Positions 3,919-24,965 of a stretch of 26,283 bases of DNA are shown here, piece after piece. The notes under the pieces are model-generated. The model made no database searches. It was not told the DNA's origin and was given only the letters and a program-made list of their open reading frames with translations. This DNA is from a virus. The stretch covers positions 1 through 26,283 of IMG/VR virus record IMGVR_UViG_3300029448_000114, one strand, 5' to 3'. A program made the position numbers and the translations under genes. Position 1 is the first letter of the stretch. Each line of letters begins with the position of its first letter.

Positions 3919-4295
3919 TGGCTGAATTTTACACAAACCTACCACCAAAACAAAAAGACGATCTCGATAAAACAATAGAGAAACTGACCACTTCCAACTA
4001 TGAGACAGAATACCAATTCAATGTTGGAGAGTACGATAGCACTGTGGCATTTTTTGTTAAAAGAAATTTTTCAAGATCCTCTGCAGAATCAACAGCATAT
4101 GCTATTCTATCACAGGCTAAAATTGATAACATAAAACCACAACAGATCCTAGACCAGTTGACCTATGCCACACCAGCACTGTTATCCGAGTTGATCACAA
4201 TTATATTAAATGCCAACAGATACAAGTCAAGTAGATTAGGTGTGAGGCAAACGCTGACAACCAAAGAGACAGTATCTAGAAACATCATAGACTAA
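3918..4295 (+). CDS. Hypothetical protein between tube-like protein and gp4
   Basis: I do not recognise this 125-residue protein. It starts MAEFYTNLPPKQKDDLDKTI, is mostly predicted-helical by eye, has no Cys and no membrane segment. A weak motif (FSRSSAESTAYAILSQAKID) precedes a helical LLSELITIILNANRYKSSR region. Both ends overlap neighbours by one base (TAATG at each junction), so it is translationally coupled to the tube-like protein and to gp4. Context suggests a virion assembly role (tail or neck), by position only. Confidence 0.8.
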   Translation: MAEFYTNLPPKQKDDLDKTIEKLTTSNYETEYQFNVGEYDSTVAFFVKRNFSRSSAESTAYAILSQAKIDNIKPQQILDQLTYATPALLSELITIILNANRYKSSRLGVRQTLTTKETVSRNIID

Positions 4296-4735
4296 TGCTT
4301 CCGAGATTTGCAAGAGGAAAGTTCTCTCCCAAGAATCAAGAGAAATACGTTGGCACAAAGACTCCGACTTATAGATCAAGTTGGGAACACGCTTTTATGA
4401 GATTGTGTGACGAACATCCAAACGTTTACCAATGGGCAAGTGAGTCTATCAAGGTGCCTTACAGACATCCGTTCACAGGTAAGTACACGGTTTATGTGCC
4501 AGACTTCTTCATAGTGTATCAAGACAAGGATGGCAAGAAACATGCAGAGATGGTAGAAGTAAAACCTGCCTCGCAAACGACAATGGAGGCGGCCGGAAAA
4601 AGCCTTGCAAAGAAAAAACAGGTTGTAATTAACATGGCAAAGTGGGAGGCGGCAAGTGCCTACGCCAAACAGAGAAGGATTAAATTTAGAGTAGTGTCAG
4701 AAGAACAGTTGTTTCACAATGGCAAACGTAAGTAA
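4295..4735 (+). CDS. gp4: Head completion protein gp4 (PD-(D/E)xK nuclease-like)
   Basis: The 146-residue product matches T4 gp4/gp50 in size and pattern: GKFSPKNQEKYVG near the start, YRSSWEHAFMRLCDE (residues 26-40), WASESIKVPYRHPFTGKY, VPDFFIV (68-74), and EMVEVKPASQ (85-94), with a C-terminal KWEAASAYAKQRRIKF. T4 gp4 is needed to finish DNA-filled heads before tails join. E31, P69-D70 and E88-x-K90 have the layout of a PD-(D/E)xK nuclease (TnsA-like), so an enzymatic role on DNA ends is plausible. The ATG overlaps the previous stop (TAATG). Its TAA is part of the TAAATA element of the next gene. Confidence 0.85.
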   Translation: MLPRFARGKFSPKNQEKYVGTKTPTYRSSWEHAFMRLCDEHPNVYQWASESIKVPYRHPFTGKYTVYVPDFFIVYQDKDGKKHAEMVEVKPASQTTMEAAGKSLAKKKQVVINMAKWEAASAYAKQRRIKFRVVSEEQLFHNGKRK

Positions 4736-4743: not shown

Positions 4744-5274
4744 ATGACAAAGAAGTTAGAAGATATTCTCAATTTACCAAATGTAAAAGAAGCATTTAAA
4801 GAGGTAGACAAAAAAGAGAAAGACAAAAAGATGAAGGAAAGTAGCAATGGCAATCCTTCTACTAAAAATCTTGATCCACAGACACAACGTAATTTGCAGA
4901 AAAGTTATGCAGAGTTTGACAAGATAGCCGCCGCACTTCCGCAAGTAAAAGGATTGGGAGAACTGTCAGATCTAGAACTTGACAAGCTGGCTGTAGAAGC
5001 CGAAGAAAGCTATAAGAATTTAATGGATTTAGGGATGAATGTCGACTCACGGTATTCTGGGCGTATATTCGAGGTAGCAGGTAATTTCCTACGTAATGCC
5101 ATAGATGCAAAGGGTTCTAAAATAGACAAGAAGCTTAAAATGGTTGAACTACAACTTAAAAAAATGAAACTGGACAAAGATGGTGACAAAGACGGTGGTC
5201 CGGTAGAAGAAAGTGACGGATTTGTTATATCTGACCGGAACGAATTAATGAAGAAACTACTTAAAAAAGACTAA
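4744..5274 (+). CDS. gp16: Terminase small subunit gp16
   Basis: The 176-residue acidic/basic helical protein begins MTKKLEDILNLPNVKEAF. It contains AEESYKNLMDLGMNVDSRYS (about 90-109), then GRIFEVAGNFLRNAIDAKGS followed by KIDKKLKMVELQLKKMKLD. This matches the helical core of T4-type gp16 (164 residues in T4): a repeated Ala/Gly helix, then a coiled coil that makes the ring which regulates the packaging motor gp17. A linker (KDGDKDGGPVEESD) and a short basic tail follow. Two genes separate it from gp17, unlike T4 where they are adjacent. Confidence 0.8.
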   Translation: MTKKLEDILNLPNVKEAFKEVDKKEKDKKMKESSNGNPSTKNLDPQTQRNLQKSYAEFDKIAAALPQVKGLGELSDLELDKLAVEAEESYKNLMDLGMNVDSRYSGRIFEVAGNFLRNAIDAKGSKIDKKLKMVELQLKKMKLDKDGDKDGGPVEESDGFVISDRNELMKKLLKKD

Positions 5275-5277
5275 ATA
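5270..5277 (+). promoter_or_regulatory. Late-promoter-like ACTAAATA before the CTS protein
   Basis: TAAATA at 5272-5277 begins with the gp16 stop codon and ends 6 bases before the ATG at 5284. No ribosome site is present. It has the same arrangement as before gp16 and the tube-like gene. Confidence 0.5.
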
Positions 5278-5283
5278 TTGCAT

Positions 5284-5904
5284 ATGAGCACGTTTAAAGA
5301 CTATCTAGCAGAATCAACAAAGTCATATGACTACAGAGTTAAAGTAGCAGGTGATATTGATAAGGATTTTGCATCTAGGATGGAAACAGCTTTAGCCAAA
5401 TTTGAAGTAGCCAAAATGTCAGCAGGCAAGAAAACACCTATACTGACAGTGCCACTAGATTTTCCTGCACTATCAAATGAGTCTGTGACTATTTTTGATG
5501 TTACTACTAACTATCCAGCATCAGTTAGAGTAATGAAAGAATACTTGGCAGACGTTATGAATATTAATCCTGCCATGATCGTTGTTAGAAAACCAGGTGA
5601 ACCTACAGAAGAATATCAAGAAAAAATGCAGGTAAAATCAGAATATGTCAATAAACTTAATGACATTGAAATGAAAGATGCGCCTAAAGTTAATTCAGAT
5701 GAACACACTGGCGACACATACAACATGGGCCTATTAAGGGAATTACTTAAATCAAAAACTGAAGTTGGTCTAGACAAGACTGAAAAAACACAAGATACAG
5801 CACCGAACGAAGGTGACAAAACAAGTAAATCACCAATCAACACAGGTCCAGGACCAGTAAAAGGCAACCCACATCCGGCAACACTACAAGGATTCAAACA
5901 GTAA
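5284..5904 (+). CDS. Putative capsid-targeted internal protein with T4-like CTS
   Basis: The 206-residue product starts at ATG 5284. A TTG at 5278 would add two residues but overlaps the spacer after TAAATA. The first eleven residues, MSTFKDYLAES, match residue by residue in type the capsid targeting sequence of T4 internal proteins (MKTYQEFIAEA), including the L/I-A-E cut site of the head protease gp21. After it comes a compact domain (SYDYRVKVAGDIDKDF to about residue 115, VRVMKEYLADVMNINPAMIV) that reads like an alpha-beta ferredoxin-type fold. A disordered Thr/Lys/Pro-rich tail follows, ending HPATLQGFKQ. It lies between gp16 and gp17. The biochemical function of the body is unknown; import into the prohead is inferred from the N-terminus. 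Confidence 0.75.
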   Translation: MSTFKDYLAESTKSYDYRVKVAGDIDKDFASRMETALAKFEVAKMSAGKKTPILTVPLDFPALSNESVTIFDVTTNYPASVRVMKEYLADVMNINPAMIVVRKPGEPTEEYQEKMQVKSEYVNKLNDIEMKDAPKVNSDEHTGDTYNMGLLRELLKSKTEVGLDKTEKTQDTAPNEGDKTSKSPINTGPGPVKGNPHPATLQGFKQ

Positions 5905-5916
5905 GGAAAATAAGTT

Positions 5917-6852
5917 ATGGAAATGATCGACGTATTACAAAAATTAAGAGAAATTGCAGAAACAAAACCGGAGTTGGTTAAAGATGCAGTTGACAATGTA
6001 CAAAGAACTAATCCTACAGAAGCAATGAATCCAAAACAACAAGCGGCAATTGCCATTTCGAAAAAAGAAAAAATGGCAGAAGGCGGCATGAAAGACTACT
6101 TGCACGATGAGGCAGAGAAACTTTCAAAAGAAGAATTTATTAAAAAACATGGTGAAAGTCTAGCAGGTTTCTGGGAAGCAATTAACGGCACAGAAGAAGC
6201 AACTGAAGGCAAAATGCCAGCAGGCTTAAAAGCATACCATGATAAAAAAGCAGGCAAAGAAGAGAAAAAAGAAACTGTAAAAGAAGACATTAAAATATCA
6301 GCAGACACTCCTCAAGAAGCAGGCATGATGATGCAGATTTTAAAACTAGCAGGCGTACAGCCAGTTGATGCCAAGATGATGGGCATGGAACCAGAGCATG
6401 GATCTGATATGGATCCAGGTGCAATGAACAAGCAAATGGACACACCAAGCGATGACGCCATGGGCACAATGCAAATGGCAAAAATGAGAGACATGATGAA
6501 AGCACCGGAAGAAGAAAAAGCGGCAGAAACTTTTGCTAACGAACCTGAAGAAAAAGTACAAGACGTTGACACACTTGTAAACAGAATGTCAGGTGGACTA
6601 GGTGCTCAAAGAAAACAGTACAGAAGCGAATACCCGGGTGACAACCCAATGGCAGTTGCAAAAGAAGACACTGTAACAGAACAGGATCTAGCAAACAGCT
6701 TAAGAGCACAGTATGAAAATTTCAAAGAATCATATCAGAAGGCGGCTGAAACAAAAGCTAAACCTGATTTCTTAGATATGGACAAAGACGGCAACAAGAC
6801 AGAACCTATGAAAAAAGCCGTTAAAGACAAAGAAGACAAAGAAACAAAGTAA
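5917..6852 (+). CDS. Acidic Met-rich putative virion/scaffold protein
   Basis: The 311-residue protein has very high Lys/Glu/Met content and no membrane segment. Visible elements: MNPKQQAAIAISKKEKMAEG (37-56), KMPAGLKAYHDKKAGKEEKK (99-118), a Met-rich central stretch (137-195) with ILKLAGVQP (141-149), a conserved-looking VNRMSGGLGAQRKQYR (221-236), and an EF-hand-like acidic loop FLDMDKDGNKTEP (285-297) near the C-terminus. Such pieces recur in marine T4-like virion proteins as far as I recall. An I-A-E at residues 13-15 could be a gp21-type cut site. The start has AAGGA at 5903-5907, 9 bases before the ATG. The position between gp16 and gp17 suggests head assembly; specific function unknown. 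Confidence 0.75.
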   Translation: MEMIDVLQKLREIAETKPELVKDAVDNVQRTNPTEAMNPKQQAAIAISKKEKMAEGGMKDYLHDEAEKLSKEEFIKKHGESLAGFWEAINGTEEATEGKMPAGLKAYHDKKAGKEEKKETVKEDIKISADTPQEAGMMMQILKLAGVQPVDAKMMGMEPEHGSDMDPGAMNKQMDTPSDDAMGTMQMAKMRDMMKAPEEEKAAETFANEPEEKVQDVDTLVNRMSGGLGAQRKQYRSEYPGDNPMAVAKEDTVTEQDLANSLRAQYENFKESYQKAAETKAKPDFLDMDKDGNKTEPMKKAVKDKEDKETK

Positions 6853-6892: not shown

Positions 6893-8485
6893 ATGGCGTA
6901 TGTATCATTAGACAGCGACCAAATCAAAAAGGCGCACAAGAAACACAAATACAGCAAGACTCAAGTAGAGCAACTTGAGAAATGTATGGATCCAAAAACA
7001 GGTCCTCTGTTCTTTATGAGGTCTTTCATGAAAATACAACACCCGGTAAAAGGTTCGATTGCATTTCAGCCATTTCCATATCAAGAGCGTTTGATTGAAA
7101 GTTATAATGATCATAGGTTTTCCATTGCCATGCTACCTAGACAAACAGGTAAAACAACATGTGCATCGGGTTTCCTCATTTGGTATGCCATGTTCCGACC
7201 AGATTCGCAGATATTAATTGCGGCACACAAATACGCAGGAGCATCAGACATCATGTCAAGGGTGCGTTATGCCTATGAGATGTTACCTAGTTGGATCAAA
7301 GCAGGTGTAACACAGTACAACAGGAATTCAATAGAGTTCGACAATGGCTCAAAAATTATGGCAACCACAACAACTGAAAATACAGGGCGGGGTATGTCAC
7401 TGACATTAATATACTGTGACGAGTTTGCATTCGTACAACCACCCGAGAAGGCCAAAGAATTTTGGACATCTCTATCTCCGACATTGAGTACAGGTGGTAA
7501 GTGTATGATAACAAGCACACCTAACTCGGATGAAGATCAGTTTGCAATGATATGGAAAGAAGCCAACAAGAGATTTGACGAGTACGGGAATGATAAGCTA
7601 ATAGGGACTAACGGTTTCTACGCCATGAAAGCACACTGGTCAGAACACCCTGACAGAGACCAAGTATGGGCAGATGCAGAAAAGGCCAGGATAGGTGAGG
7701 AAAGATTTAGAAGGGAACACGAATGTGAATTCTTGATATTTGACGAAACACTTATATCTAGTATAACATTGGCCGATATGGAAGGAGTTCCACCGGTCGA
7801 AACAACAGGGCAGGTCCGTTGGTTCAAACGTCCAACACCAGGACACACCTATATGGTATCACTCGACCCCAGCATGGGAACCGGTGGAGATTTTGCCGCA
7901 ATACAAGTTTTTGAGTTGCCAACCTTTGAACAAGTAGGAGAATGGCATCACAACACAACACCAATGAATCATCAGGTACGTATCTTGCAAGGTATTACTA
8001 AACACATACACGACACAATAATGGAAAAAGATGCATCAGCGACGCCTCAAATATTTTATTCAATGGAGAACAACTCCATAGGCGAAGCGGCATTGTTAAG
8101 AGTAATGGACATAGGTGAAGAAAACATAATGGGAATGTTCTTGTCGGAACCTATAAGGAAAGGACACAGAAGAAAATTTAGGAGAGGATTCAACACAACT
8201 GCTAAACATAAAATTGACGCCTGTACAAAATTTAAAGAGCTTGTGGAGAACGACAAGATGAAGATAAACTCATCACTTTTGATATCAGAGCTAAAAGACT
8301 TTGTTGCATCCGGAATGACTTACAGTGCTAAACCCGGCCAGCACGACGATCTAGTAAGCTCTTGTTTGCTAATGACACGTATGATGAAAGTATTGGCAGA
8401 TTTTGACCCGAAAATATTTGAAAAATGGACAGACAGACAAAGTGAGATTACACCAATGCCCATATTTGGAACGTTCACAGGATAA
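6893..8485 (+). CDS. gp17: Terminase large subunit gp17 (packaging ATPase-nuclease)
   Basis: The 530-residue product is the motor that pumps DNA into the prohead and cuts the concatemer. ATPase domain: adenine-binding region FQPFPYQERLI (58-68), Walker A LPRQTGKTT (81-89), Walker B LIYCDEFAF (172-180) with the catalytic Glu, and coupling motif TSTP (208-211). RNase H-type nuclease domain: first Asp in MVSLDPSMGTGGDFAAI (321-337, D325), second acidic residue in YSMENNSIGEAA (E392), and the HDD of PGQHDDLVSS (484-486). All key residues are present, so it should be active. It is shorter than T4 gp17 (610 residues), mainly by lacking N- and C-terminal extensions. Confidence 0.96.
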   Translation: MAYVSLDSDQIKKAHKKHKYSKTQVEQLEKCMDPKTGPLFFMRSFMKIQHPVKGSIAFQPFPYQERLIESYNDHRFSIAMLPRQTGKTTCASGFLIWYAMFRPDSQILIAAHKYAGASDIMSRVRYAYEMLPSWIKAGVTQYNRNSIEFDNGSKIMATTTTENTGRGMSLTLIYCDEFAFVQPPEKAKEFWTSLSPTLSTGGKCMITSTPNSDEDQFAMIWKEANKRFDEYGNDKLIGTNGFYAMKAHWSEHPDRDQVWADAEKARIGEERFRREHECEFLIFDETLISSITLADMEGVPPVETTGQVRWFKRPTPGHTYMVSLDPSMGTGGDFAAIQVFELPTFEQVGEWHHNTTPMNHQVRILQGITKHIHDTIMEKDASATPQIFYSMENNSIGEAALLRVMDIGEENIMGMFLSEPIRKGHRRKFRRGFNTTAKHKIDACTKFKELVENDKMKINSSLLISELKDFVASGMTYSAKPGQHDDLVSSCLLMTRMMKVLADFDPKIFEKWTDRQSEITPMPIFGTFTG

Positions 8486-8497: not shown

Positions 8498-10591
8498 ATG
8501 AACCCTAAAAATTCACAAGATCTATTCAACAAGATAAGATCACAGTTCTCAAACATTAGACTAGGTGATGAGAACGGGGCCGCTACAGCCGATCCAGGCA
8601 GTGCTGTATTTTTTGAATTTGATTTTGAAGAAGATGCAGACACATTTGGTTCAGTGAGCATATCCATGGCCGACGGCGACAACATGAAAGTCTACTACAA
8701 TAGAGATCTTGTAAGCAAAATTGATGAGGACAGCAGGGACGAATGGTATGCTTTCCTTAAAGAACTAAAAGACTTTGCTGTAGAACATCAACTGGGTTTT
8801 GATGTGCGTGATATTACAAAAAATAACCTTACGAAGCAGGATTATAATAATCTTGCAGATACGAACAAAACGGTAAATACTGATGAAATGTCAGAAGAAC
8901 TAGCAAGAATAACAAAATTAGCAGGGGTAACTGAAGGCCTTACAGGAACAGCAAAACGTTCATACGAGAACCTAGAAAAAACAAAATTGATTATAAGACA
9001 CAAAGGCAAAGTTGACGAGACTGTACCAGGTGCGAGATCAAGACAGATTCAATCATTATACATTGAGAACGAAGATGGTGAAAGATTTAAATATCCTATG
9101 ACTCATTTAGCAGGTGCTAGAGCAATGATGAGACACGTGTCAAATGGTGGAAGACCACATGATGAGTTTGGACAACACATTGTTTCGACTTCGGAAGATA
9201 TAGCAAAATTAAATTCATTCTCAAGATATGTTACCAACAAAGATCAATTGAATGACAATGCAGGTGACATCATAGAGCAGACTAAATTAAAACTAGAGAA
9301 CCTGAGGGGTTACATGAAGAACCTTTCTAACCAATCACACTACGAGAACGCAAGTAAAGATTTCAAAACATCAGAAGACCAAATACTGGACGATGAAACT
9401 GTTAACAAAATGAGAGAGAAGTTCACAATGACAAACCTAGACAGCAGAGTTGAAGATGCACTACCAATCATAAACAGAATAATGAGTGAATTGGAAAATG
9501 CACCCAAAGAAGATCAAGTGAACGAACTTGAACCAGATGCGGAACCAATTGATGCACCTGTACAAGCACCAGTGGATCACGGTGCAGTCGTACAAAGTTT
9601 CTTAAATGATCCAGACAGCAAATTAGTTTTGAGAAAAGATGATTCAGCAGACAAGATGTTGAAAGTGACAAAATTCACAAACAAGAACACAATGTTAAGT
9701 TCTATTTTATCAGACATAGCGTCTAGACTGTTGACTAAATCCGGTGAGGAAGACAGGGTGGCAAACTTTGCTTCAAGAGTAGCAGATGAAATGGAACAAG
9801 AGAATTCGGCAACATTCAAAGCAACACCTGACTACATTAAGAACAAGAAGATAGCAGTGCAGTTGGCAAAAAGATACATCGACGACTACAAGAAAATGCA
9901 GTCTGAACCAGGTTATACTGATCAAGTGAGAATGGAACCTGCAGATTTCAATCCTAAGAAAGATCTTAAAGGCAAAGCAAAAGAAACTGAAGCGTTTGAA
10001 GGTTGGGTTGACTCAATGATTGACGAAGGTGGTATCAAACCTTACGTATCAATGAGCAGAGGTGAAGATGACGGCAAGATGATGTACAACGTTCTAGACA
10101 GAAATGAAAAGACAATCTTCGCATCACGAAACCAGAAAGAAGCGACGGAGTTTCTAAGAAGAAATTTTGACAAATTGAGAGCAGGCGAAATGGAAGTGGC
10201 GGAGTATGCAAAAGCACCAAAAGATCCAGAAGACAGAGATGCAAAAATGAAGGCTATACAGGACATACAGATGGATCCTAACACAGCAAAAGATCCTGAA
10301 ATGATGAAAATGGCAATACAACGTAAAAAAGAATTAATGAAAGAACCTGTTGCGGCAGAGGGTAACGAATTTGCAAACGCAGTAAGGAAAGCAAAAGCGG
10401 CAGGAATGAAATCAGGCGATAAATTTAACGTTGGCGACAAAGAGTACACACTCAAAGATGCAATCGAAATGGCAGGATTACAACTGGAAGAATTTTTCTC
10501 AGAAGAGGGTGACGAATCAGAAGCACAGGAAGAAGCACAAGAGATCAACACAGAATTAGATAGAATTAAAACACTAGCCAATCTTTCATAA
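8498..10591 (+). CDS. Large acidic protein next to terminase, probable virion protein
   Basis: This 697-residue protein has no recognised enzyme motif. By eye it has an N-terminal alpha-beta domain (1-110, AVFFEFDFEEDADTFGSVSI), a short hinge with ELARITKLAGVTEG (134-147), a domain with KLIIRHKGKVDETVPGARSR and YPMTHLAGARAMMRHVSNGG (199-218), and a long helical charged middle. The C-terminal module FANAVRKAKAAGMKSGDKF then VGDKEYTLKDAIEMAGLQL is followed by a very acidic tail ending LDRIKTLANLS. I recall related large proteins beside packaging genes in marine T4-like phages, annotated as structural or hypothetical. It carries the TAAATA start signal shared by structural genes. Function unknown. 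Confidence 0.8.
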   Translation: MNPKNSQDLFNKIRSQFSNIRLGDENGAATADPGSAVFFEFDFEEDADTFGSVSISMADGDNMKVYYNRDLVSKIDEDSRDEWYAFLKELKDFAVEHQLGFDVRDITKNNLTKQDYNNLADTNKTVNTDEMSEELARITKLAGVTEGLTGTAKRSYENLEKTKLIIRHKGKVDETVPGARSRQIQSLYIENEDGERFKYPMTHLAGARAMMRHVSNGGRPHDEFGQHIVSTSEDIAKLNSFSRYVTNKDQLNDNAGDIIEQTKLKLENLRGYMKNLSNQSHYENASKDFKTSEDQILDDETVNKMREKFTMTNLDSRVEDALPIINRIMSELENAPKEDQVNELEPDAEPIDAPVQAPVDHGAVVQSFLNDPDSKLVLRKDDSADKMLKVTKFTNKNTMLSSILSDIASRLLTKSGEEDRVANFASRVADEMEQENSATFKATPDYIKNKKIAVQLAKRYIDDYKKMQSEPGYTDQVRMEPADFNPKKDLKGKAKETEAFEGWVDSMIDEGGIKPYVSMSRGEDDGKMMYNVLDRNEKTIFASRNQKEATEFLRRNFDKLRAGEMEVAEYAKAPKDPEDRDAKMKAIQDIQMDPNTAKDPEMMKMAIQRKKELMKEPVAAEGNEFANAVRKAKAAGMKSGDKFNVGDKEYTLKDAIEMAGLQLEEFFSEEGDESEAQEEAQEINTELDRIKTLANLS

Positions 10592-13527: not shown

Positions 13528-14140
13528 TAGGATAATACTAACAGACGTGGATGGTGTACTACTCGAATGGGAACATCATTTCACCAAGTGGATGCTACAA
13601 CGCACATTGTTTGATGAAAAAAATGCAAGATATCATCCATATACCCTATTGCCAGACAAACAAAACACTTATGAAATGGCAGAAAGATTTGGAATTTCAA
13701 TAAAACAAATAAGAAAAGAAATAAGAGAATTTAACAGGAGTGCTTGGATGGGCACACAGAGACCAATGTTGGAGTCACAGACATGGGTAAAACTACTGGC
13801 CGCAGAAGGTTGGACATTCATACCTATCACATCACAAACATCAGATATACCGGCACAACAGTTGCGTAAGAAAAGAATGGGTGATTTATTTGGGGATCAT
13901 ATCTTTACAAATTATCACATACTAGGCACAGGAGCAGACAAAGACGGGGCATTAGCTGAGTTTCATGACACCGGACTGTATTGGGTCGAGGACAAGCCAA
14001 AGAACGCTTTAGCCGGGCTCAAATACGGTTTAAAGCCTATATTAATCGACCACCCATACAATCGAGACTTTGAACACCCTGAAATTATACGTGTAAGTAA
14101 TTGGAAGGACATACACAAAATAGTATCAGGAAGAAAATGA
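13511..14140 (+). CDS. HAD-superfamily phosphatase-like protein
   Basis: The 209-residue product has the HAD motifs: DVDGVLL (12-18, nucleophile D12 and acid/base D14), PITSQTS (105-111, motif II Thr/Ser), K144 (motif III candidate in GADKDGAL) and WVEDKPKNA (158-166, acidic motif IV). Between motifs I and II lies a helical cap with ERFGISIKQIRKEIREFNRS. Such proteins remove phosphate from nucleotides or sugars; the substrate cannot be told. The ATG overlaps the uvsY end by 17 bases and has AGGA 7 bases upstream. The stop overlaps the next start (ATGA). It could serve nucleotide salvage or the sugar genes that follow. Confidence 0.78.
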   Translation: MPTSNNRIILTDVDGVLLEWEHHFTKWMLQRTLFDEKNARYHPYTLLPDKQNTYEMAERFGISIKQIRKEIREFNRSAWMGTQRPMLESQTWVKLLAAEGWTFIPITSQTSDIPAQQLRKKRMGDLFGDHIFTNYHILGTGADKDGALAEFHDTGLYWVEDKPKNALAGLKYGLKPILIDHPYNRDFEHPEIIRVSNWKDIHKIVSGRK

Positions 14141-14814
14141 AAATTTACGTAGGTTGGGACTCCAGAGAAGACATAGCATACCAAGTGTGTGAACACTCTA
14201 TCAAACGCAGAGATCCTGATGCAGTAGTAAGACCACTGAAACAAAACGAAATGCGAGAACAAGGTATCTACACACGTGAGGTAGATAAACTTGCAACCAC
14301 TCAATTTACATTCACAAGATTCTTTGTACCGCACCTTAACAACTTCAAAGGCTGGGCAGTCTTTTGCGACTGTGATTTTCTTTGGAAGATACCAGCAAAA
14401 GAACTAGAACAGCACTGTGATGATTCAAAAGCAGTAGTTTGTGTACAGCACGAATACACACCCGAAGAAGGATCAACAAAAATGGACGGACAGATACAGA
14501 CTGCATATCCAAGAAAGAACTGGAGCAGTATGGTATTATGGAACTGCGGCCATCCAAAGAATCAAATACTTACACCAGAGTTTTTAAACAAACAGACTCC
14601 AAAATTCTTACACAGATTTAGTTGGTTAGAAGATTCAGAGATAGGATCACTACCACACGAGTACAACTGGTTGGTAGGCTGGTACAAAGAACCAAAGGAT
14701 GGTGCACCAAAGATACTACACTACACGGAGGGAGGACCTTGGTTTGACGGTTATAGGAATTGCGAATATTCCGACGACTGGAAAAAAGAGGTAATCAATC
14801 TTTTCAGTGCATGA
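14137..14814 (+). CDS. GT8-like glycosyltransferase
   Basis: The 225-residue product starts MKIYVGWDSREDIAYQVCEH, typical of small GT-A transferases, and has the metal-binding DxD in AVFCDCDFLW (D78, D80) and the C-terminal ILHYTEGGPWF (193-203), the place of the second metal-binding His in GT8-type enzymes. Expected reaction: transfer of a sugar from a nucleotide-sugar to an acceptor glycan or protein. The ATG at 14137 is chosen over an upstream frame start at 14101 because it has AGGAAG about 4 bases before it and gives the ATGA overlap with the HAD gene. Confidence 0.82.
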   Translation: MKIYVGWDSREDIAYQVCEHSIKRRDPDAVVRPLKQNEMREQGIYTREVDKLATTQFTFTRFFVPHLNNFKGWAVFCDCDFLWKIPAKELEQHCDDSKAVVCVQHEYTPEEGSTKMDGQIQTAYPRKNWSSMVLWNCGHPKNQILTPEFLNKQTPKFLHRFSWLEDSEIGSLPHEYNWLVGWYKEPKDGAPKILHYTEGGPWFDGYRNCEYSDDWKKEVINLFSA

Positions 14815-15257
14815 TAGAATTCTTTAAAAAACTGCATAAGAAAAATTTTTACACAGATCCGGCTGAACACATCATATGGACTCATCCAAGACGTGTGCAG
14901 GAGTATGACGACCTCTACGAAGAGCAACTGCGTTTTGACAATGAACTATGGACCAATTTCAGAAATACGCATAATATCAAATGCCAATTCCACGATGACA
15001 TAAAGGACATAGATCTATCCCACGATATTGTTTGCCTATGGTTTTTCAGAGAGCGTAGTGACAGAGATGCCGCAAATGATATAGACGTTGCTGGTAAAAT
15101 TATTTCATTTACAGCAAATAAATTATTGATAGCATATGCAAAAGATATCAAAATAATAAAACGTAAAAGATTTTTCCCAAGAAGACCGTGTGTGCAAATA
15201 GCAATTAGCAACGAAGTGTACGTAAATATAAAAAAAGGATTGGGCGTAAATGAATGA
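14811..15257 (+). CDS. Hypothetical protein in sugar cluster
   Basis: The 148-residue product is not recognised. It starts MIEFFKKLHKKNFYTDPAEH; visible pieces are WTHPRRVQEYDDLYEEQLRF, an acidic DDIKDIDLSHDIVCLWFFRE, and a basic KIIKRKRFFPRR near the C-terminus. It lacks a membrane segment. The start at 14811 gives an ATGA overlap with the transferase; an upstream in-frame start at 14760 would overlap it by 55 bases and is rejected. The DI-V-C-L-W-F-F-R-E-R-S-D pattern reads like a sugar-binding or sulfotransferase-like core strand, but this is not enough for a call. Confidence 0.75.
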   Translation: MIEFFKKLHKKNFYTDPAEHIIWTHPRRVQEYDDLYEEQLRFDNELWTNFRNTHNIKCQFHDDIKDIDLSHDIVCLWFFRERSDRDAANDIDVAGKIISFTANKLLIAYAKDIKIIKRKRFFPRRPCVQIAISNEVYVNIKKGLGVNE

Positions 15258-15870
15258 GGGTGAAAGATTTATAGACAAGTGTCTGACAACATTAGTAGGC
15301 CTGCAACCGTGGCCGCATCAAATCATCAACGACACATTAAGTCACGAGGCCTTTGCAAAGCTGAAGGACAGTTGTTTCAAGACCACTTTGACTAAGACAA
15401 CAGAGCTGATACACGTACACCCAGCCGAGTACAAAGACTGGGGCGTAGACTTTTATGACGAGACTGTGGACATATGCACTAACTTATTAAAAAATATAAA
15501 AGAGCTTTGTGGTAGATATCCAAAGCATAGGACATATCAAAACCTAGGAGTCAATGCACACATATCTATAACACCACCACTGCCATACAAGTTCCATATA
15601 CACCAAGAAGGTTTAGAAAAAATATGGAGTTCGGTGACTTACATTACACCAGAAAAAAATATTGGCACCAAGATGTATGCCGAACAAAAAGAACAATCTT
15701 TTGTAAGCGAAGCCCCATGGATCCCTAACAGCACATTTATATTTTGTGGACAACAAGGCAAGACATGGCATTCATATGAAAGTAATCAGAATACAAACAG
15801 GATAACATTGAATCTTTTTATACAAAAGACACGTAAGAATAAATGTTTTATGGAGTTTGCTGATCTTTAA
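15250..15870 (+). CDS. 2OG-Fe(II) oxygenase-like protein
   Basis: The 206-residue product has the size and likely double-stranded beta-helix strands of small phage oxygenases. Possible iron ligands are H118-x-E120 in FHIHQEG (115-121) and H174 in TWHSYESNQ, with R184 in NRITLNLFIQ as the 2-oxoglutarate anchor. The HxE in place of HxD is seen in some members. The product would hydroxylate a protein, sugar or nucleotide; substrate unknown. The ATG overlaps the previous gene by 8 bases and has AAGGA 10 bases upstream. Its 3' end overlaps the convergent gene on the other strand by 23 bases. Confidence 0.6.
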   Translation: MNEGERFIDKCLTTLVGLQPWPHQIINDTLSHEAFAKLKDSCFKTTLTKTTELIHVHPAEYKDWGVDFYDETVDICTNLLKNIKELCGRYPKHRTYQNLGVNAHISITPPLPYKFHIHQEGLEKIWSSVTYITPEKNIGTKMYAEQKEQSFVSEAPWIPNSTFIFCGQQGKTWHSYESNQNTNRITLNLFIQKTRKNKCFMEFADL

Positions 15871-16564
15871 TAAATCTATTTAAAGCATCCACATCAGCTT
15901 CGAGATGCCTTTTCCTTACTTTATTCCAAACAAAATTATCTCTGTTATTAATATTAAGGAATGTACGCACTTGGACACCGGTCTTGTCAAATACCTTTTT
16001 AGCTTTAAACACTACTGTAGGCAAATATAAACATCTACGTAACCTTCGTGCAACTTTTTGTGTGTAAGAATCAACGTGCCAGTGCCAGAAGAATGGTGGG
16101 GCCAGATAACCTAATGTCTTTGTCCAGTTCTTATGCACAGCAAAATGTGGTGCCGGTAGAGCCTCATCACCCCATATCTTTATTTCGTCTTTGAATCTTT
16201 TTGATCCTTTCATTCTGCCATCGCAAGGAACTACCATTAGAATTCTATCATTGTATTTGTCAAACTGTTCCGTAATAAGATGATCCCAGTCCTGTGTTTT
16301 AACTTGTACGTCATCTCCCATAAGCATTACGATATCATGTTTGGCCTTGTCGGCCATAAGATTCCAACTGTAACAAGTGGATTGGTTTGGGCCAATTGTG
16401 TAGTGCTTTTCGTCCAGTAAATCTTTGTAGTGTTCTAACTTTTCATCATCTTCATTGAGATAGAAAAGGAATTCTGTATCGCCCTTTTGTGTTTCTGTGG
16501 CTGTGTCTACTAATCTTTTCGCGTATTCTGGTCTACCTCTAGAAGGGCAACAAAAAGAAATCAT
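15848..16564 (-). CDS. GT2-like (GT-A fold) glycosyltransferase
   Basis: The 238-residue product starts MISFCCPSRGRPEYAKRLVD, the usual first strand of GT2-type transferases, and has LMGDDVQV (81-88) as the metal/nucleotide-sugar DxD-type site, with FWHWHVDSY (159-167) in the acceptor half. It is compact, without membrane segments. Its ATG overlaps the epimerase stop (ATGA), so it is the last gene of the minus-strand operon. The linkage it makes cannot be predicted. Confidence 0.8.
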   Translation of the reverse strand: MISFCCPSRGRPEYAKRLVDTATETQKGDTEFLFYLNEDDEKLEHYKDLLDEKHYTIGPNQSTCYSWNLMADKAKHDIVMLMGDDVQVKTQDWDHLITEQFDKYNDRILMVVPCDGRMKGSKRFKDEIKIWGDEALPAPHFAVHKNWTKTLGYLAPPFFWHWHVDSYTQKVARRLRRCLYLPTVVFKAKKVFDKTGVQVRTFLNINNRDNFVWNKVRKRHLEADVDALNRFIKDQQTP

Positions 16565-17565
16565 ATTAGTTTATTCTTCCAGGTATCCGGTGTCTTATCG
16601 TTTATAATTTCTAAAGGCAAATGGTATTGGAATTTCTTTGTGCCTCTAGATCTAATGTATTCAGCAGTCTTTCTGACAGACTTTCTCATATCTGTTGCTG
16701 TACTATACCCTAATAAGTTTCTAGCTTTGTCTGACGAACACACCGCTAGTTTGACTTCCTTGGGTCTGTCCTTGTGATGTATAGGATCTAGATTAATGCC
16801 TGTTTCGTTGGCACATGCCTCTGCTAACTCATTAATTGTTATAGGTTCTTCGTCTGGTCCTATGTTGATCACTTCTCCTACAACGTTATCATTAAATGCA
16901 AGTGCATTAAGGCAATATAAACAATCATCTATATAGCTGAAACATCTTTTTTGTTCACCGTCTCCGTATATAATTGGTTGTTTTCCTTGCAACATTCTGT
17001 TCAACATGATAGACATTACATTTCTAAAAGGATCATCGTATTTCTGTCTAGGGCCGACAATGTTATGTGGAACGGCAATTACATATTCTACCCCATGGGT
17101 CTCACATAAATTTTTCAAGACATCCTCGCCTGCCTTCTTTGCAATACCATAAGGATCTTGTGGACGACATTCATAGGTTTCTTTGTAAGGAATTTGGTCA
17201 TGATGGCCATATCTTGCCATGCTTGAACAGTATACAATTCGTTTGACTTTGTTTCTAATAGCGGCTGTAATTGTTGTGACCGACGCCTCAAATATATTTC
17301 TAGTTACAAGCACAGGGGAAAACACAGATAATCCTTCGTATGCAGTCGCCGCCGTATGATATACAATATCACAACCTTCCATTGCGTTTGTTAAGTTTTC
17401 TAAGTCACAGCAATCAATTTGGTGAAACTCTACATCTTGTGGTACGTTATCAGTATATCCGCCAATCATGTTATCGTTACCAGCAACAATATGCCCTTGT
17501 GACAACATCAAGTCAGCTAAATGTGAACCAAGAAATCCTGCCACACCTGTAATGAAAATCTTCAT
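16561..17565 (-). CDS. NAD-dependent sugar epimerase/dehydratase (extended SDR)
   Basis: The 334-residue product has the Rossmann glycine motif GVAGFLGS (7-14), VYHTAATAYEG (68-78), the active-site region IVYCSSMARYG (110-120) and Y139-x3-K143 in DPYGIAKKAGED. NIVGPRQKYDDPFRNV and the FSYIDDCLYCLNAL segment, followed by INIGPDEEPITINELA, are typical of UDP-glucose 4-epimerase-type enzymes. It probably acts on a nucleotide-sugar to supply the neighbouring transferases. It is preceded by TAAATA ending 5 bases before the ATG instead of a ribosome site, unlike the other genes of this arm. Confidence 0.9.
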   Translation of the reverse strand: MKIFITGVAGFLGSHLADLMLSQGHIVAGNDNMIGGYTDNVPQDVEFHQIDCCDLENLTNAMEGCDIVYHTAATAYEGLSVFSPVLVTRNIFEASVTTITAAIRNKVKRIVYCSSMARYGHHDQIPYKETYECRPQDPYGIAKKAGEDVLKNLCETHGVEYVIAVPHNIVGPRQKYDDPFRNVMSIMLNRMLQGKQPIIYGDGEQKRCFSYIDDCLYCLNALAFNDNVVGEVINIGPDEEPITINELAEACANETGINLDPIHHKDRPKEVKLAVCSSDKARNLLGYSTATDMRKSVRKTAEYIRSRGTKKFQYHLPLEIINDKTPDTWKNKLI

Positions 17566-17570
17566 AAGTC

Positions 17571-17578
17571 TATTTACG
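17571..17578 (-). promoter_or_regulatory. Late-promoter-like CGTAAATA before the epimerase gene
   Basis: On the minus strand TAAATA (17576 down to 17571) follows the FkbM stop by two bases and ends 5 bases before the epimerase ATG (17565). This is the only sugar gene with the structural-gene arrangement. No AAGGA-type ribosome site is present. Confidence 0.5.
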
Positions 17579-18208
17579 TTATGGTTTTTTGTGCCATACT
17601 ACATCCGGCCACACCTTGACCAATTGCTTAAATCCTTTTTTCACTAGATAATTTTCGATGTCAGCATTACTACTTCCATATTTTTTAGAGTTGTTGTTTA
17701 ATTCAATCATCAAATATTGTAAATTTTCTAGTGTTTGTACAGCACCCTTCAATACTTCCATTTCATATCCTTCTACATCTATCTTAATCATATCTATATC
17801 TGACAGTCCAAGGCCATCAACAGTGACCATAGGAATGCTACCATCACCCACTACACGTTTGGCCTGCGTGAAGTCATCGTCTGACAAAGCTATCATTTTA
17901 CTATCATTTCCAACAGCCAGTTGATGTGTTTCAACGTCCTCGGGCACGTTCTTTGTCAGGCATTCATAATGAACAGGATCTGGTTCAAATGCCACTATCC
18001 TGCCACATAGCGTATTCATGGCCACGGTCCATGTGCCAACCCAGGCTCCTATGTCTAACACATGATTAAATTTAAGATTTTTACTTTTACAATGTGTAAT
18101 AAATTTTTCTAAACATTTATTTTGTGTAAAACTTTTTCCATCTTGCCAATCCCCAATGTGTACATCGTTCGATGGTACCCAGAATCCGTTAATTTTTTTA
18201 ATTTGCAT
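17579..18208 (-). CDS. FkbM-family methyltransferase
   Basis: The 209-residue product has the SAM-binding motif VLDIGAWVGTW (50-60), AFEPDP (73-78), and the FkbM signature DMIKIDVEGYEMEVLKGA (139-156), followed by LQYLMIELNNN. FkbM-type enzymes methylate hydroxyls of sugars or small molecules. The start has AAAGGA 8 bases upstream and overlaps the end of the SGNH gene by 11 bases. A second, more distant FkbM-type protein is encoded at 23176-23988. Confidence 0.9.
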   Translation of the reverse strand: MQIKKINGFWVPSNDVHIGDWQDGKSFTQNKCLEKFITHCKSKNLKFNHVLDIGAWVGTWTVAMNTLCGRIVAFEPDPVHYECLTKNVPEDVETHQLAVGNDSKMIALSDDDFTQAKRVVGDGSIPMVTVDGLGLSDIDMIKIDVEGYEMEVLKGAVQTLENLQYLMIELNNNSKKYGSSNADIENYLVKKGFKQLVKVWPDVVWHKKP

Positions 18209-18968
18209 TCCAGATGTCCTTTACAACTTTGTGTAATTCATCGGCCCATGCTCGTTGTCCTGCTACATTTGGATGTTCGTCGATATCAGACACAGTAAGT
18301 TTTCTCTTTACGCACCACCCATGCTGGCCCTCATCAAAGCTACCTTGTAGTTTGTAAAAATGTTTCTGGTCCACCTGTTGCAAAAGTTTTTTGCATTCGT
18401 AGGTCAGTGGGTCATCAAACCCGTTGTGCAGTGCGTTAAACATTAGATATGGAACATTGTTTAATTTTAAGAAAGACTGCATGTACAGTATTTGTAAAAC
18501 TGTTCTAATTTGACCATCGGCCTCCAGTGCCGGAGTATAGTGTGTTTCTCCGCAATATACCCATGGAGTGAACGGTAAGTCCTTATAATAGGGAGGAGCT
18601 TTTGGATCAACCATTTTCCACGTGTGCCAGTATGAGTTGTTATGGCTAGTTGTCAGTGCCTCACGTCTATTGTAACTGGTCAGCCCTATCAACACAAATG
18701 TTTTACGTATTTTGGTCTGTGGTAATTTACGTACTATCATCTCATTACTAATCCCGTTCTCTGCAATTTTTTTAAATTCCATACCTAGTTTTTTTGCAAG
18801 TATCGAACCACACGTGTGCGGAGCTTCGGCATCCATTCCGTATTTTTTTTTGAAGTTCCCTCTGTTAATGGGAGAAGTTGCACTTACCCCGGATTTTATT
18901 CCTTTGATGTATTCAGGCACACCATTGCCCATTGCAAAAGAACAACCAAAATGTATGAAAGTCTCCAT
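18198..18968 (-). CDS. SGNH/GDSL-like protein 1
   Basis: The 256-residue product starts METFIHFGCSFAMGNGVPEY. GCSFAMG (8-14) is the place of the GDS nucleophile block (S10), ENGISNEMIV (70-79) that of the Asn-containing block, IGLTSYNRRE (94-103) a conserved strand, and DEHPNVAGQ (230-238) the catalytic Asp-His block. SGNH proteins act as esterases or O-acetyl transferases/deacetylases on glycans. I chose the ATG at 18968, with AAAGGA 8 bases before it and a one-base TAATG overlap with the upstream gene, over an in-frame start at 19061. Activity is inferred. Confidence 0.75.
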   Translation of the reverse strand: METFIHFGCSFAMGNGVPEYIKGIKSGVSATSPINRGNFKKKYGMDAEAPHTCGSILAKKLGMEFKKIAENGISNEMIVRKLPQTKIRKTFVLIGLTSYNRREALTTSHNNSYWHTWKMVDPKAPPYYKDLPFTPWVYCGETHYTPALEADGQIRTVLQILYMQSFLKLNNVPYLMFNALHNGFDDPLTYECKKLLQQVDQKHFYKLQGSFDEGQHGWCVKRKLTVSDIDEHPNVAGQRAWADELHKVVKDIWNAN

Positions 18969-19780
18969 TATAATATTCCTTTGTCCAACAAGACTTGCAC
19001 TGCTTTGCCATTCATAAACTCTTCTGGTGTAAATTGTTGGTATGCTAGACTGTACAACCAAGGTTCGGGGCCTGCATAGTAAGGATCTTCTATATCTTCT
19101 AGGTGTGTATTACCCATTGCCTCAGCAAAACTTTTCCTATCACAAAACACTGGCACACCCATACACACGGCTTCTATGGCACTTATGCTACAGCTGGTTA
19201 CACACGCCCATGCATCTTTCAAGTCCTCGGATAGGGGAACCTTGGCTTCACTTGGTCCTGAAGTTCCCCTGCCCCTGGGCTTGTGTCGAAGTCTGATAGG
19301 TCTATCAGTGGCCCTTTTCAACTGATCAATAGTTTCCTGTGTCCAATTTGGTCTTTCAAGATATTCATTGATACTGTTAGAACTTGGACAAACTAAAATA
19401 TGAGATCCTTTCAAAGTAGGTGCTTTGATTTGCATTCCAAATTTTTCAAACCTATCTGGTTTACAATCCTTAATATATTTTGCATGTATGCTGTTCTTAC
19501 ATATTCTCCAGTAATGATTGTCTGGCTTAAGATTGTTGTTATTGAACCTGCCGAAATATGGCGTATCAGTAAACCAAAAATTGTGCTTACGGGCTTCCAG
19601 CTTTTTCACTAAATTTAAATTATTGTTTACGAATCCCCAAAACATAGAATTAGACAGAGGTTCCGTTGCGATGCTGTTATCGTTGACTACAACTTGGTCG
19701 GGCCAGGCCTGTTTGACACCATTAAAAACTTCCCATGCTTTGCTTTTCGGATTATCCGATGGGGCATAAATTGTTAGCAT
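18968..19780 (-). CDS. GT-B-like (capsule-synthesis type) transferase A
   Basis: The 270-residue product has HILVCPSSNS as the start of the second Rossmann-like half, RPIRLRHKPRGR, and CVTSCSISAIEAVCMGVPVF, the glycine/serine loop and helix that bind the nucleotide-sugar in GT-B and KpsC/KpsS-like capsule transferases. The C-terminus ends PWLYSLAYQQFTPEEFMNGK. It shares this layout with the products at 22368 and 23978, so the three are paralogues. AAGGA lies 8 bases before the ATG. The ATG is 29 bases inside the preceding SGNH gene. Donor and acceptor unknown. Confidence 0.65.
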   Translation of the reverse strand: MLTIYAPSDNPKSKAWEVFNGVKQAWPDQVVVNDNSIATEPLSNSMFWGFVNNNLNLVKKLEARKHNFWFTDTPYFGRFNNNNLKPDNHYWRICKNSIHAKYIKDCKPDRFEKFGMQIKAPTLKGSHILVCPSSNSINEYLERPNWTQETIDQLKRATDRPIRLRHKPRGRGTSGPSEAKVPLSEDLKDAWACVTSCSISAIEAVCMGVPVFCDRKSFAEAMGNTHLEDIEDPYYAGPEPWLYSLAYQQFTPEEFMNGKAVQVLLDKGIL

Positions 19781-20456
19781 CTATGAATTCCTTTAGCTGT
19801 TTGGCCCAGTCTTGGTGTCCTGTCGCCGATGGGTGCCAGTCATCAGGCGCACAATGTTGATTATTTTGTTCAGTATAATCCCTATGTGATGTCTCTGGTT
19901 TAAAATATCTGGTCATGTCTATTGATCTATAGAGTGCTTTGACGTCATCTGATTTTGCTTTTATCTCAGGATCAGATATTGTTTTATACATCACATACGG
20001 ATATTTCTTCAATTTAAAATAATTCTGTAAATTAAGTGTGGCCTCGAGAGACTCGTACTGCATCATTTCATCCATATCTAAACTACAGGTATTGAAAAGA
20101 TATTTAAAAAATTTTTCAGTGTAACGATTAATGTGTGGCTTATATGTTCTCCAAGATGTTTTAAGTTGAGGAAATTTGTGTTTTTTGTATCCGTCGGTGG
20201 TTGGTATATCGAATCTCTGGCCAGATGTAATACCAATCACAAAAAAACATTTTTCTGCTATTTCTTTATTACTCTCACACCAAACTTTGGTTGTGATACT
20301 ACATCTCTTGTTACCACGGCCTCCGCCTGCCAAATGGCACGCTGTTTCGAGATCCATCATCTTTGCTAGTTCCATTCCAACGTGTGTGTCGACGCCTTCC
20401 TTTGGCCTCTGTGTAAGAAACGAACAGCCATTGGTAAAAATATGAGTGGGTTGCAT
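19752..20456 (-). CDS. SGNH/GDSL-like protein 2
   Basis: The 234-residue product has NGCSFLTQ (9-16; S12), HLAGGGRGNKRC (41-52), IGITSGQRFD (74-83) and a C-terminal DDWHPSATGHQDW (205-217) that supplies the Asp-x-x-His pair. The order and spacing match SGNH protein 1 encoded two genes on, although sequences are far apart. It is the first gene of the minus-strand arm, starting 33 bases from the divergent gene. The likely role is adding or removing acyl groups on the glycan. Confidence 0.72.
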   Translation of the reverse strand: MQPTHIFTNGCSFLTQRPKEGVDTHVGMELAKMMDLETACHLAGGGRGNKRCSITTKVWCESNKEIAEKCFFVIGITSGQRFDIPTTDGYKKHKFPQLKTSWRTYKPHINRYTEKFFKYLFNTCSLDMDEMMQYESLEATLNLQNYFKLKKYPYVMYKTISDPEIKAKSDDVKALYRSIDMTRYFKPETSHRDYTEQNNQHCAPDDWHPSATGHQDWAKQLKEFIDANNLCPIG

Positions 20457-20498
20457 AATATAATAATTAATTATACACTAAACAAACCCATGTCGCAA
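20457..20498. promoter_or_regulatory. Divergent promoter region with back-to-back -10 boxes
   Basis: The 33-base gap 20457-20489 between divergent genes is almost pure A/T. TATAAT occurs on the plus strand at 20459-20464 and on the minus strand at 20475-20470. For the minus-strand box, TTGCGA (20498-20493, minus strand) lies at exactly 17 bases, a plausible -35. The plus-strand box has no good -35 at the right distance. The region should fire at least the minus arm (start near 20463, about 7 bases before the ATG). Confidence 0.5.
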
Positions 20499-21584
20499 CT
20501 TGTAAAAAATATTACCAGCATTAGATACTTTTTAGACAAATATGATATCATAGACAATTCATATGACATCAATATGAAATATCATGCAACAATGCCAGGT
20601 AAATTCACTAGCAATCCGACATTTGTTGCTGAATTTAAAAACTGTTCGGTGAATAGTCTGCCAATTTTGATTACAGAAGACAGGCACATGATCACAGAAC
20701 ACCTGTGGCCCATGTTAGACAGGTATAAAAATAAGCCAATGAAGCATCACGGAATGTGGAGCAGTTGGGGTGAGGATGTCGACATCGAGATGCCACCAAT
20801 AGCAAGACAGTTCAATGGCACCTACAAGTACGTTTGGTTACCAATAGACAAGCACAGCACCGGCAACCCATGGCACATATGGATAGATGTCATCAGTAAG
20901 TTCAGACTAATAGAAAAAAGATGGTCCACAAACTTTGCTAAATTTGTCTACATACTGTCCAACCCAAGTCCATACTTTGACAAAGTGGCAAAAGAACTTT
21001 TTCCAGATTTAAAATATTATGTGATGCCGGAAGGAGAGACATGGAGATTCCAACACCTACTGGCACCGTCTATGAGCAACTGCAATGACGGAGTTGTAAC
21101 ACCACACTTGCCGCCATGGCTACGTCACTTCAAGGGATCGTTTGGAATACCAGAGAACCAGAAACCATTTAGGAAAATATACATATCTCGAGATAAAGCA
21201 CACACTAGGAAATTGAACAATGCCAGCGAATTATTGATGGCACTGAAAGGATGGCAGTCTGTCACACTTGAGGACCTACCAATAAAAGAACAAGTGAAAG
21301 TGTTTGCAGAAGCATCACAGGTCCTAGCAACACACGGAGCGGGTATGATTAATGCCCTGTGGTGTAGGGAAGGAACAAAGATAGTAGAAATACAAGACGG
21401 AAAGATGTTACACAAAAAAGTTTATCCGTTGTTATCAAATAGCTTGAAACTGAAGCACGAAGTTTTTGTTGCAAAGACAACACCAATAGCAACAGATGGT
21501 AAAAAACCAAAGGGTGTGAAAAGACGAAATGATCTAATCAATTTTAATGTTGACATTCCTAAATTAATTAGACATCTAGACTGA
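20490..21584 (+). CDS. GT61-like (DUF563) glycosyltransferase
   Basis: The 364-residue product has, in its C-terminal half, RKIYISRDKAHTRKLNN (228-244), VTLEDLPIKEQVKVFAEASQ (258-277) and THGAGMINALWCREGTKIVE (281-300). This is the order typical of GT61/DUF563 transferases that act on capsular glycans or proteins. The N-terminal half (WLPIDKHSTGNPWHIWIDV) fits the acceptor side. I chose the ATG at 20490: frame-open starts at 20382 and 20442 lie inside the divergent SGNH gene. No clear ribosome site precedes it. Confidence 0.85.
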   Translation: MSQLVKNITSIRYFLDKYDIIDNSYDINMKYHATMPGKFTSNPTFVAEFKNCSVNSLPILITEDRHMITEHLWPMLDRYKNKPMKHHGMWSSWGEDVDIEMPPIARQFNGTYKYVWLPIDKHSTGNPWHIWIDVISKFRLIEKRWSTNFAKFVYILSNPSPYFDKVAKELFPDLKYYVMPEGETWRFQHLLAPSMSNCNDGVVTPHLPPWLRHFKGSFGIPENQKPFRKIYISRDKAHTRKLNNASELLMALKGWQSVTLEDLPIKEQVKVFAEASQVLATHGAGMINALWCREGTKIVEIQDGKMLHKKVYPLLSNSLKLKHEVFVAKTTPIATDGKKPKGVKRRNDLINFNVDIPKLIRHLD

Positions 21585-21597
21585 TATCACTTATAAT

Positions 21598-22371
21598 ATG
21601 ACCATGTATTCATTGTTACAGAAAAAACCAACAGTACAGACAGATCCTTACCCACACGTGATTATAGAAGACGCCTTACCATGGGATATCTACGAGGCAC
21701 TGGAAAACAGTTTTCCAGAGTCAATGGTATTACAACAACAAAATGCCTACGACAACAACATCTGTTTTAGATTAAAAGCAGACAAACTATTGAATCCAAA
21801 AGAAAACATACCCGGAGTATGGAAAGAATTCACAAAGTATCACACGTCTGCGGAATGGTTCAACGAAGTAAATGAGCTATTCAAACCTTACATGCCAAGC
21901 GTATTGCATAAAACATTCACAGAGGAAGACTTAGGTGCAAGGGGCTGGGCAGACGAAAATAAAAACATATGGACTGATTGTCAAGCGGTCATGCACAAAC
22001 CCATAGAAGAAAAAACTACACGTACACCTCACATAGATAATCCAATGGAGATGTGGGCAGGATTATTGTACATGCCGTATCTAAATGACCGAAGCATAGG
22101 TGGAGAATTTCAAATTTACTCAACACAGTCTAGTGTGCAGAAAGTTAACAAGAAAGCCGGCAGGCAAATTTATGATAGTGACCTTGGTACAGTAATTAAG
22201 ACAATCCCTTACAAAAGGAATACATTTGTCATGTTTGCAAATAATTCACCTAATACTGTACACGGTGTATCACTTAGACAAAATGCAACACTTAACAGGA
22301 GAAGCGTAAACATAATTGGAGAATTCAAAAGAGGTTATTCAACAATGTACAGCGTTCAAGAGATACTATGA
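21598..22371 (+). CDS. 2OG-Fe(II) oxygenase (prolyl-hydroxylase-like)
   Basis: The 257-residue product has the iron ligands in TPHIDNPMEMW (H-x-D) and PNTVHGVSLRQ, followed by the 2-oxoglutarate Arg in LNRRSVNIIGEF. The segment between has LLYMPYLNDRSIGGEFQIY and RNTFVMFANNS, typical of this fold. It would hydroxylate a protein side chain or sugar. Two ATGs are possible: 21598, which overlaps TATAATAT (21592-21599), and 21604, which lies 4 bases after that box and would again suit a leaderless start. A real ribosome site is not seen for either. Confidence 0.88.
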   Translation: MTMYSLLQKKPTVQTDPYPHVIIEDALPWDIYEALENSFPESMVLQQQNAYDNNICFRLKADKLLNPKENIPGVWKEFTKYHTSAEWFNEVNELFKPYMPSVLHKTFTEEDLGARGWADENKNIWTDCQAVMHKPIEEKTTRTPHIDNPMEMWAGLLYMPYLNDRSIGGEFQIYSTQSSVQKVNKKAGRQIYDSDLGTVIKTIPYKRNTFVMFANNSPNTVHGVSLRQNATLNRRSVNIIGEFKRGYSTMYSVQEIL

Positions 22372-24964: not shown

Positions 24965-24965
24965 A

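Follow-up and report, generated by a model that had tools for sequence, protein, structure and literature searches.

A predicted T4-type capsid-targeting propeptide on a conserved virion protein of marine jumbo-type phages

Gene X lies in the packaging module of a 26,283-nucleotide stretch of IMG/VR record IMGVR_UViG_3300029448_000114 (the window). It probably encodes a head protein of a marine jumbo-type T4-superfamily myovirus that carries a cleavable capsid-targeting propeptide. Targeting, cleavage and internal location are what we infer, and we put the probability of this reading at roughly 0.8. Residues 1-10 would form a short helix, F4 and Y7 on one helix face would bind the prohead scaffolding core, and X would be enclosed in the head as the shell closes. 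A gp21-type protease would then cut after L8-A9-E10, freeing mature X from Ser11 inside the head. The targeting device is known from T4; judged by sequence, the X family would be a newly proposed user of it, and no report of a targeting sequence on this family or on phrog_14802 was found in the open-licence literature searched. The T4 head-loading device would thereby extend to jumbo phages far from T4, with one specific virion protein named as its user, offering a direct handle on jumbo-phage head contents and a candidate tag with which heads could be loaded with cargo. Coordinates are given in Table 1.

Table 1. Features around gene X, in window coordinates.
Feature	Position	Strand	Basis or remark
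gp4-like head-completion/TnsA-type protein	4295..4735	+	phrog_218 8e-41, PF08722 2e-21
gp16-like terminase small subunit	4744..5274	+	phrog_445 E=2e-4, phrog_16202
TAAATA, T4-type late-promoter-like box upstream of X	5272..5277	+	CTAAATA before X in nearly all 118 loci
Gene X	5284..5904	+	206 aa; PHROG 14802 'virion structural protein'
Predicted capsid-targeting propeptide MSTFKDYLAE, residues 1-10	5284..5313	+	conserved at 4, 7, 8, 10; in register with IPII/IPIII/gp24
Predicted gp21-type cut Glu10/Ser11 (L-A-E/S)	5311..5316	+	L/I-X-E consensus (PMC9026906); relatives' gp23 RYLSE/Q
X body, predicted beta-alpha-beta-beta-alpha-beta (ferredoxin/ribosomal-S6-like) domain	5326..5595	+	AlphaFold, about residues 15-104
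Y, mosaic protein with conserved N-terminus MEMIDVLxxLxEIAE	5917..6852	+	comparison across relatives
gp17 terminase large subunit	6893..8485	+	closest is Pseudomonas jumbo phage PA5oct, 55.5%
Z, virion structural protein	8498..10591	+	family phrog_13484

The start of X matches the T4 targeting sequence

Translation from 5284 on the + strand gives the N-terminus MSTFKDYLAESTKSYDYRVKVAG, with 5284-5316 coding for MSTFKDYLAES. The initial annotation had placed the start here, and homologous loci agree: in 118 of 118 (117 from two IMG/VR scans plus the window, some contigs having been fetched twice) X opens at the equivalent ATG, and TAAATA ends 6 nt upstream. The TTG at 5278, upstream of this start, is beyond the conserved stretch.

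The gapless T4-type design originally proposed for this peptide was confirmed when it was set against MKTYQEFIAEA, the start of T4 IPII and IPIII read from NC_000866. The two share one register and agree at M1, T3, the aromatics at 4 and 7, L/I8, E10 and the small residue at 11. Like X, IPII and IPIII are proteins of about 10-20 kDa with an N-terminal ten-residue sequence that has hydrophobic or aromatic residues at 4 and 7, L/I8-x-E10 and a small residue 11 (MKTYQEFIAE/A); they differ in that the bodies are unrelated and some X lineages lack Glu10. The propeptide of T4 gp24 (MAKINELLRE/S) has the length and spacing of that of X and is nearest in style to the CBB and phAPEC6 versions (MNKLQKILTE), but gp24 is a vertex capsid protein with an unrelated body. 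Head propeptides of the jumbo phages SPN3US and phiKZ are also N-terminal and removed by a prohead protease (PMC5694885), as predicted for X, but most are much longer (several >100 aa), have an A-X-E or S-X-E motif and belong to a different phage lineage.

To gauge chance matches we used a broad pattern, M..[FYLIMVW]..[FYLIMVW][LI].E, and a strict form restricted to aromatics. After internal Met codons of T4 and PA5oct genes the broad pattern occurred at 2 of 2128 and the strict at 1 of 2128, so that the contig, with its 48 called ORFs, should hold about 0.05 and 0.02 matches by chance, respectively; one was seen, and it is conserved. At called starts of the T4 genome the pattern retrieved IPII, IPIII and gp24, which are gp21 substrates (PMC5694885, PMC9026906), along with one internal-Met match. 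Searching T4 at the DNA level added gp61.1, and the reversed control gave no T4 match. In jumbo genomes short patterns do turn up at random, and the reversed control matches there too; the CBB matches at 204755 and 322411 were dismissed as antisense inside genes. PA5oct gp110 (MYNFEKFITE) matches at its annotated start. A search of marine relatives for further tagged proteins, suggested at the outset, was run as a six-frame scan of 1.12 Mb of their DNA (138 loci, partly on shared contigs and hence not all independent), and all 51 distinct ORF matches were X itself.

Weak scores, which we take as support only, came from the 'internal head protein' profile phrog_2667: it was matched by 13 of 28 X members (best E 0.0032), in the window protein through residues 1-39, and also by T4 IPII and IPIII, via their first 16-19 residues.

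T4 gp61.1 (54 aa, NC_000866 18966-19130, locus L097) begins MKTFKEFIKE. Over 37 aa it shares 46% identity with gp23 residues 57-93, which cover the gp23 cut site. From its sequence, gp61.1 appears to join a CTS-like start to a gp23-like junction.

Conservation follows the T4 mutational map

Position by position, 68 distinct 60-nt starts were compared. F4, Y7 and E10 were each kept in 67/68, L8 in 66/68 and S/A11 in 68/68, and the codons for F4, Y7 and L8 varied synonymously. The free positions were 5 and 6, with 7-8 different residues apiece, and 9, with four. In T4 IPIII, mutagenesis showed that targeting depends mainly on residues 4 and 7 and that processing depends on 8 and 10, and an Asp10 substitution blocks cutting but keeps targeting (reviewed in PMC9026906). 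Across 11 hand-chosen lineage representatives, the lowest entropies among positions 2-11 were at 8, 7, 4 and 10, the T4 targeting and processing residues, a ranking with a chance of 1 in 210 under random order; this match covers only part of the T4 map, as the mutated sites listed omit 5, 6 and 9. Position 4 was F or L and position 7 Y or I across lineages, conserved as hydrophobic or aromatic. Natural variation in the X family is in line with the T4 mutational map and supplies natural, presumably uncleaved variants.

X is a conserved virion protein of jumbo phages

The phrog_14802 profile was matched by all 28 aligned X members over most of their length from residue 1 (best 2.7e-11), and by the window protein at 1.1e-7 across residues 1-144. 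A tblastn search with X found 79 phage records at ~24-30% identity, mostly aligned from residue 1, and every X-bearing phage among the matches listed was a large or jumbo myophage. Both PA5oct/Rak2-type jumbo phages and their marine relatives conserve the gene. Its phrog_14802 orthologs (CBB_210, phAPEC6 gp270c, PA5oct gp282, GAP32_204) resemble it in sequence, in their place after the gp16-position gene and in virion presence, whilst CBB-type members differ from the window protein in having L/I at 4 and 7. Scanning IMG/VR with single X proteins, those of Atu, Vibrio and PA5oct in turn, added nothing new.

The N-terminus keeps L-x-E in the distant orthologs of Atu_ph07 (MKTLQDYLTES), Vibrio 2.275 (MKDLNTILTES), CBB (MNKLQKILTEL) and phAPEC6 (MNRLQQILTEK), the last three with L/I in place of the aromatics at 4 and 7. 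Residues 4, 7 and 8 remain hydrophobic or aromatic throughout the distant orthologs. In Atu_ph07 (NC_042013, L060 8001-8087) the annotated start of X is too far downstream and hides the targeting motif; likewise, the conserved N-terminus of phAPEC6 gp270c (MK817115, L094 4001-4111) lies upstream of the annotated start.

The earlier suggestion was that the product is packed in the head; presence in virions was found for three orthologs. By mass spectrometry, CBB_210 was found in purified virions with 13 unique peptides and 60.5% coverage (PMC5259590) and phAPEC6 gp270c with 4 peptides and 41.1% (PMC7247149), and the record of PA5oct gp282 notes ESI-MS/MS.

X has also been pictured as an accessory protein like the T4 internal proteins. 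This picture needs changing: X is conserved and syntenic in jumbo phages, with three lineages lacking the cleavage Glu, whereas the T4 proteins vary and are dispensable. The CTS proteins known from T4 are in part injected (PMC9026906), and X could, in addition to being a targeted head protein, be an effector delivered with the DNA in the manner of T4 IPI or Alt. We regard this addition, whose likelihood overlaps with that of the main reading, as possible but doubtful: X is single-copy, and Pfam, PDB-sequence and fold searches found no effector homology. A core head role is favoured over that of an optional injected factor because X is conserved and syntenic.

As initially annotated, the body of X is unrelated to T4 internal proteins, with no relative in Pfam or PDB-sequence searches; homology of the mature protein to T4 IPI/II/III was not found, the link being weak and limited to the N-terminal region. 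An AlphaFold model built from 28 sequences has a short helix at residues 4-11, with confidence below that of the body. pLDDT is mostly about 70-89 in the core, which spans residues 15-102, and averages 64 over the whole model, which has a long low-confidence tail. S6-like and ferredoxin-like folds were among the top PDB matches of the model, as general similarities only (TM to target up to 0.58), and its best BFVD matches were unnamed phage proteins and the Atu_ph07 X. No function was drawn from these matches, which point only to a general ferredoxin/ribosomal-S6-like fold. On the preferred reading, X would be a core head protein with a predicted ferredoxin-like domain.

Predicted cleavage and its probable loss in some lineages

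The comparison with capsid-protein cut sites proposed initially was made in close relatives. Two of them (G001 and G002, X 67-68% identical) contain both peptidase S77 (gp21) and gp23; neither was found in the window's own 39,617-base IMG/VR record, which is a fragment. Alignment to T4 gp23 (FLTE-65) predicts that gp23 of these relatives is cut at RYLSE/QATAG or RYLSE/QSTAG, an L-x-E site resembling in style the X sites KYLTE/A and DYLAE/S. Each of the four named jumbo phages searched, PA5oct, CBB, Atu_ph07 and Vibrio 2.275, also has a gp21-family protease.

Glu10 has been lost in three lineages, PA5oct (MKSFRDYYDAS), Phosso (MKNFYEYLSSV) and marine L189/L190 (MKNLNEYLTSS). All three retain residues 4 and 7, which suggests that X is still targeted there but no longer cut. 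The L-x-E site is kept in gp23 of PA5oct (RFLVE/N) and Phosso (PLME/T), so the N-terminus of their X should stay uncut, which would parallel the T4 Asp10 result.

These lineages indicate that cleavage is not essential to X, and they would suit a permanent docking peptide, in which the N-terminal helix stays uncleaved and binds the portal, the capsid or some other head protein, the L-x-E match being a coincidence. We consider this quite unlikely. L8 and E10 are fixed around a free position 9 in 66-67 of 68 marine sequences, and both processing residues (L/I8 and E10) are present in the window, nearly all marine loci, Atu_ph07, CBB, phAPEC6 and 2.275; the matching protease and gp23 site are present in close relatives. 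Moreover, T4 E10D is also targeted yet uncut, so that loss of the Glu fits a targeting sequence. Chance resemblance in an unrelated structural protein is highly improbable: the peptide has only eleven residues, of a kind that recurs at random in jumbo genomes, but conservation falls exactly on the functional positions, both in the 118 loci and over the 11 lineages, X is the sole ORF to match in the 1.12 Mb, and the T4 calibration recovers IPII, IPIII and gp24.

With a cleavable targeting propeptide as the preferred reading, a broader proposal, in our view rather unlikely, is that a T4-type CTS is ancestral to the PA5oct/Rak2/marine jumbo clade and is carried there by a core head protein which forms or fills the inner body, with some lineages turning it into a permanent anchor through Glu loss. 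An inner body has been seen in phAPEC6 and is poorly understood; a link between it and X is only a suggestion.

The packaging neighbourhood

X was described as lying between gp16 and gp17. It does, though not alone, as a second gene, Y, is there too. The gene order sheath-tube-tube-gp4-(gp16-position gene)-X is largely shared; Atu_ph07 and Phosso carry insertions. TAAATA occurs at 1809, 4733, 5272, 6880 and 8486, in each case 11-16 nt ahead of a gene start (gp19, gp16, X, gp17 and Z, in that order), and the boxes of the last four leave room for almost no leader. By analogy with T4 late promoters, these boxes may act as late promoters.

Y is the next gene after X in relatives. Its start is nearly fixed, its C-terminus often carries the fixed motif DFLDMDKDGNKKEPMKKA, and its length ranges from 272 to 491 aa, the middle seeming to be swapped between modules. 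With conserved ends and a variable middle, Y could be a second head-targeted cargo protein, with a possible I-A-E site at 13-15.

A motif [IL]xx[LI]AG[IV] ends the gp22-position gene in G001, G002 and PA5oct (IRHLAGI, LRRLAGIK) and appears again inside Y, Z and PA5oct gp281. Its counts are at least equal to the highest shuffle in each jumbo or marine sequence, yet small; it might be a core-binding motif.

Adjoining the packaging module, window positions 14101-26283 hold a long run of sugar- or surface-modification-like genes on both strands, assigned by eye as epimerase, methyltransferase-like and glycosyltransferase-like. In contig G000 (24966-26917; L061 4966-6917), an asparagine-synthase-like ORF enters a gap of four undetermined residues followed by a near-duplicate of its C-terminal part, a duplication that is probably an assembly join.
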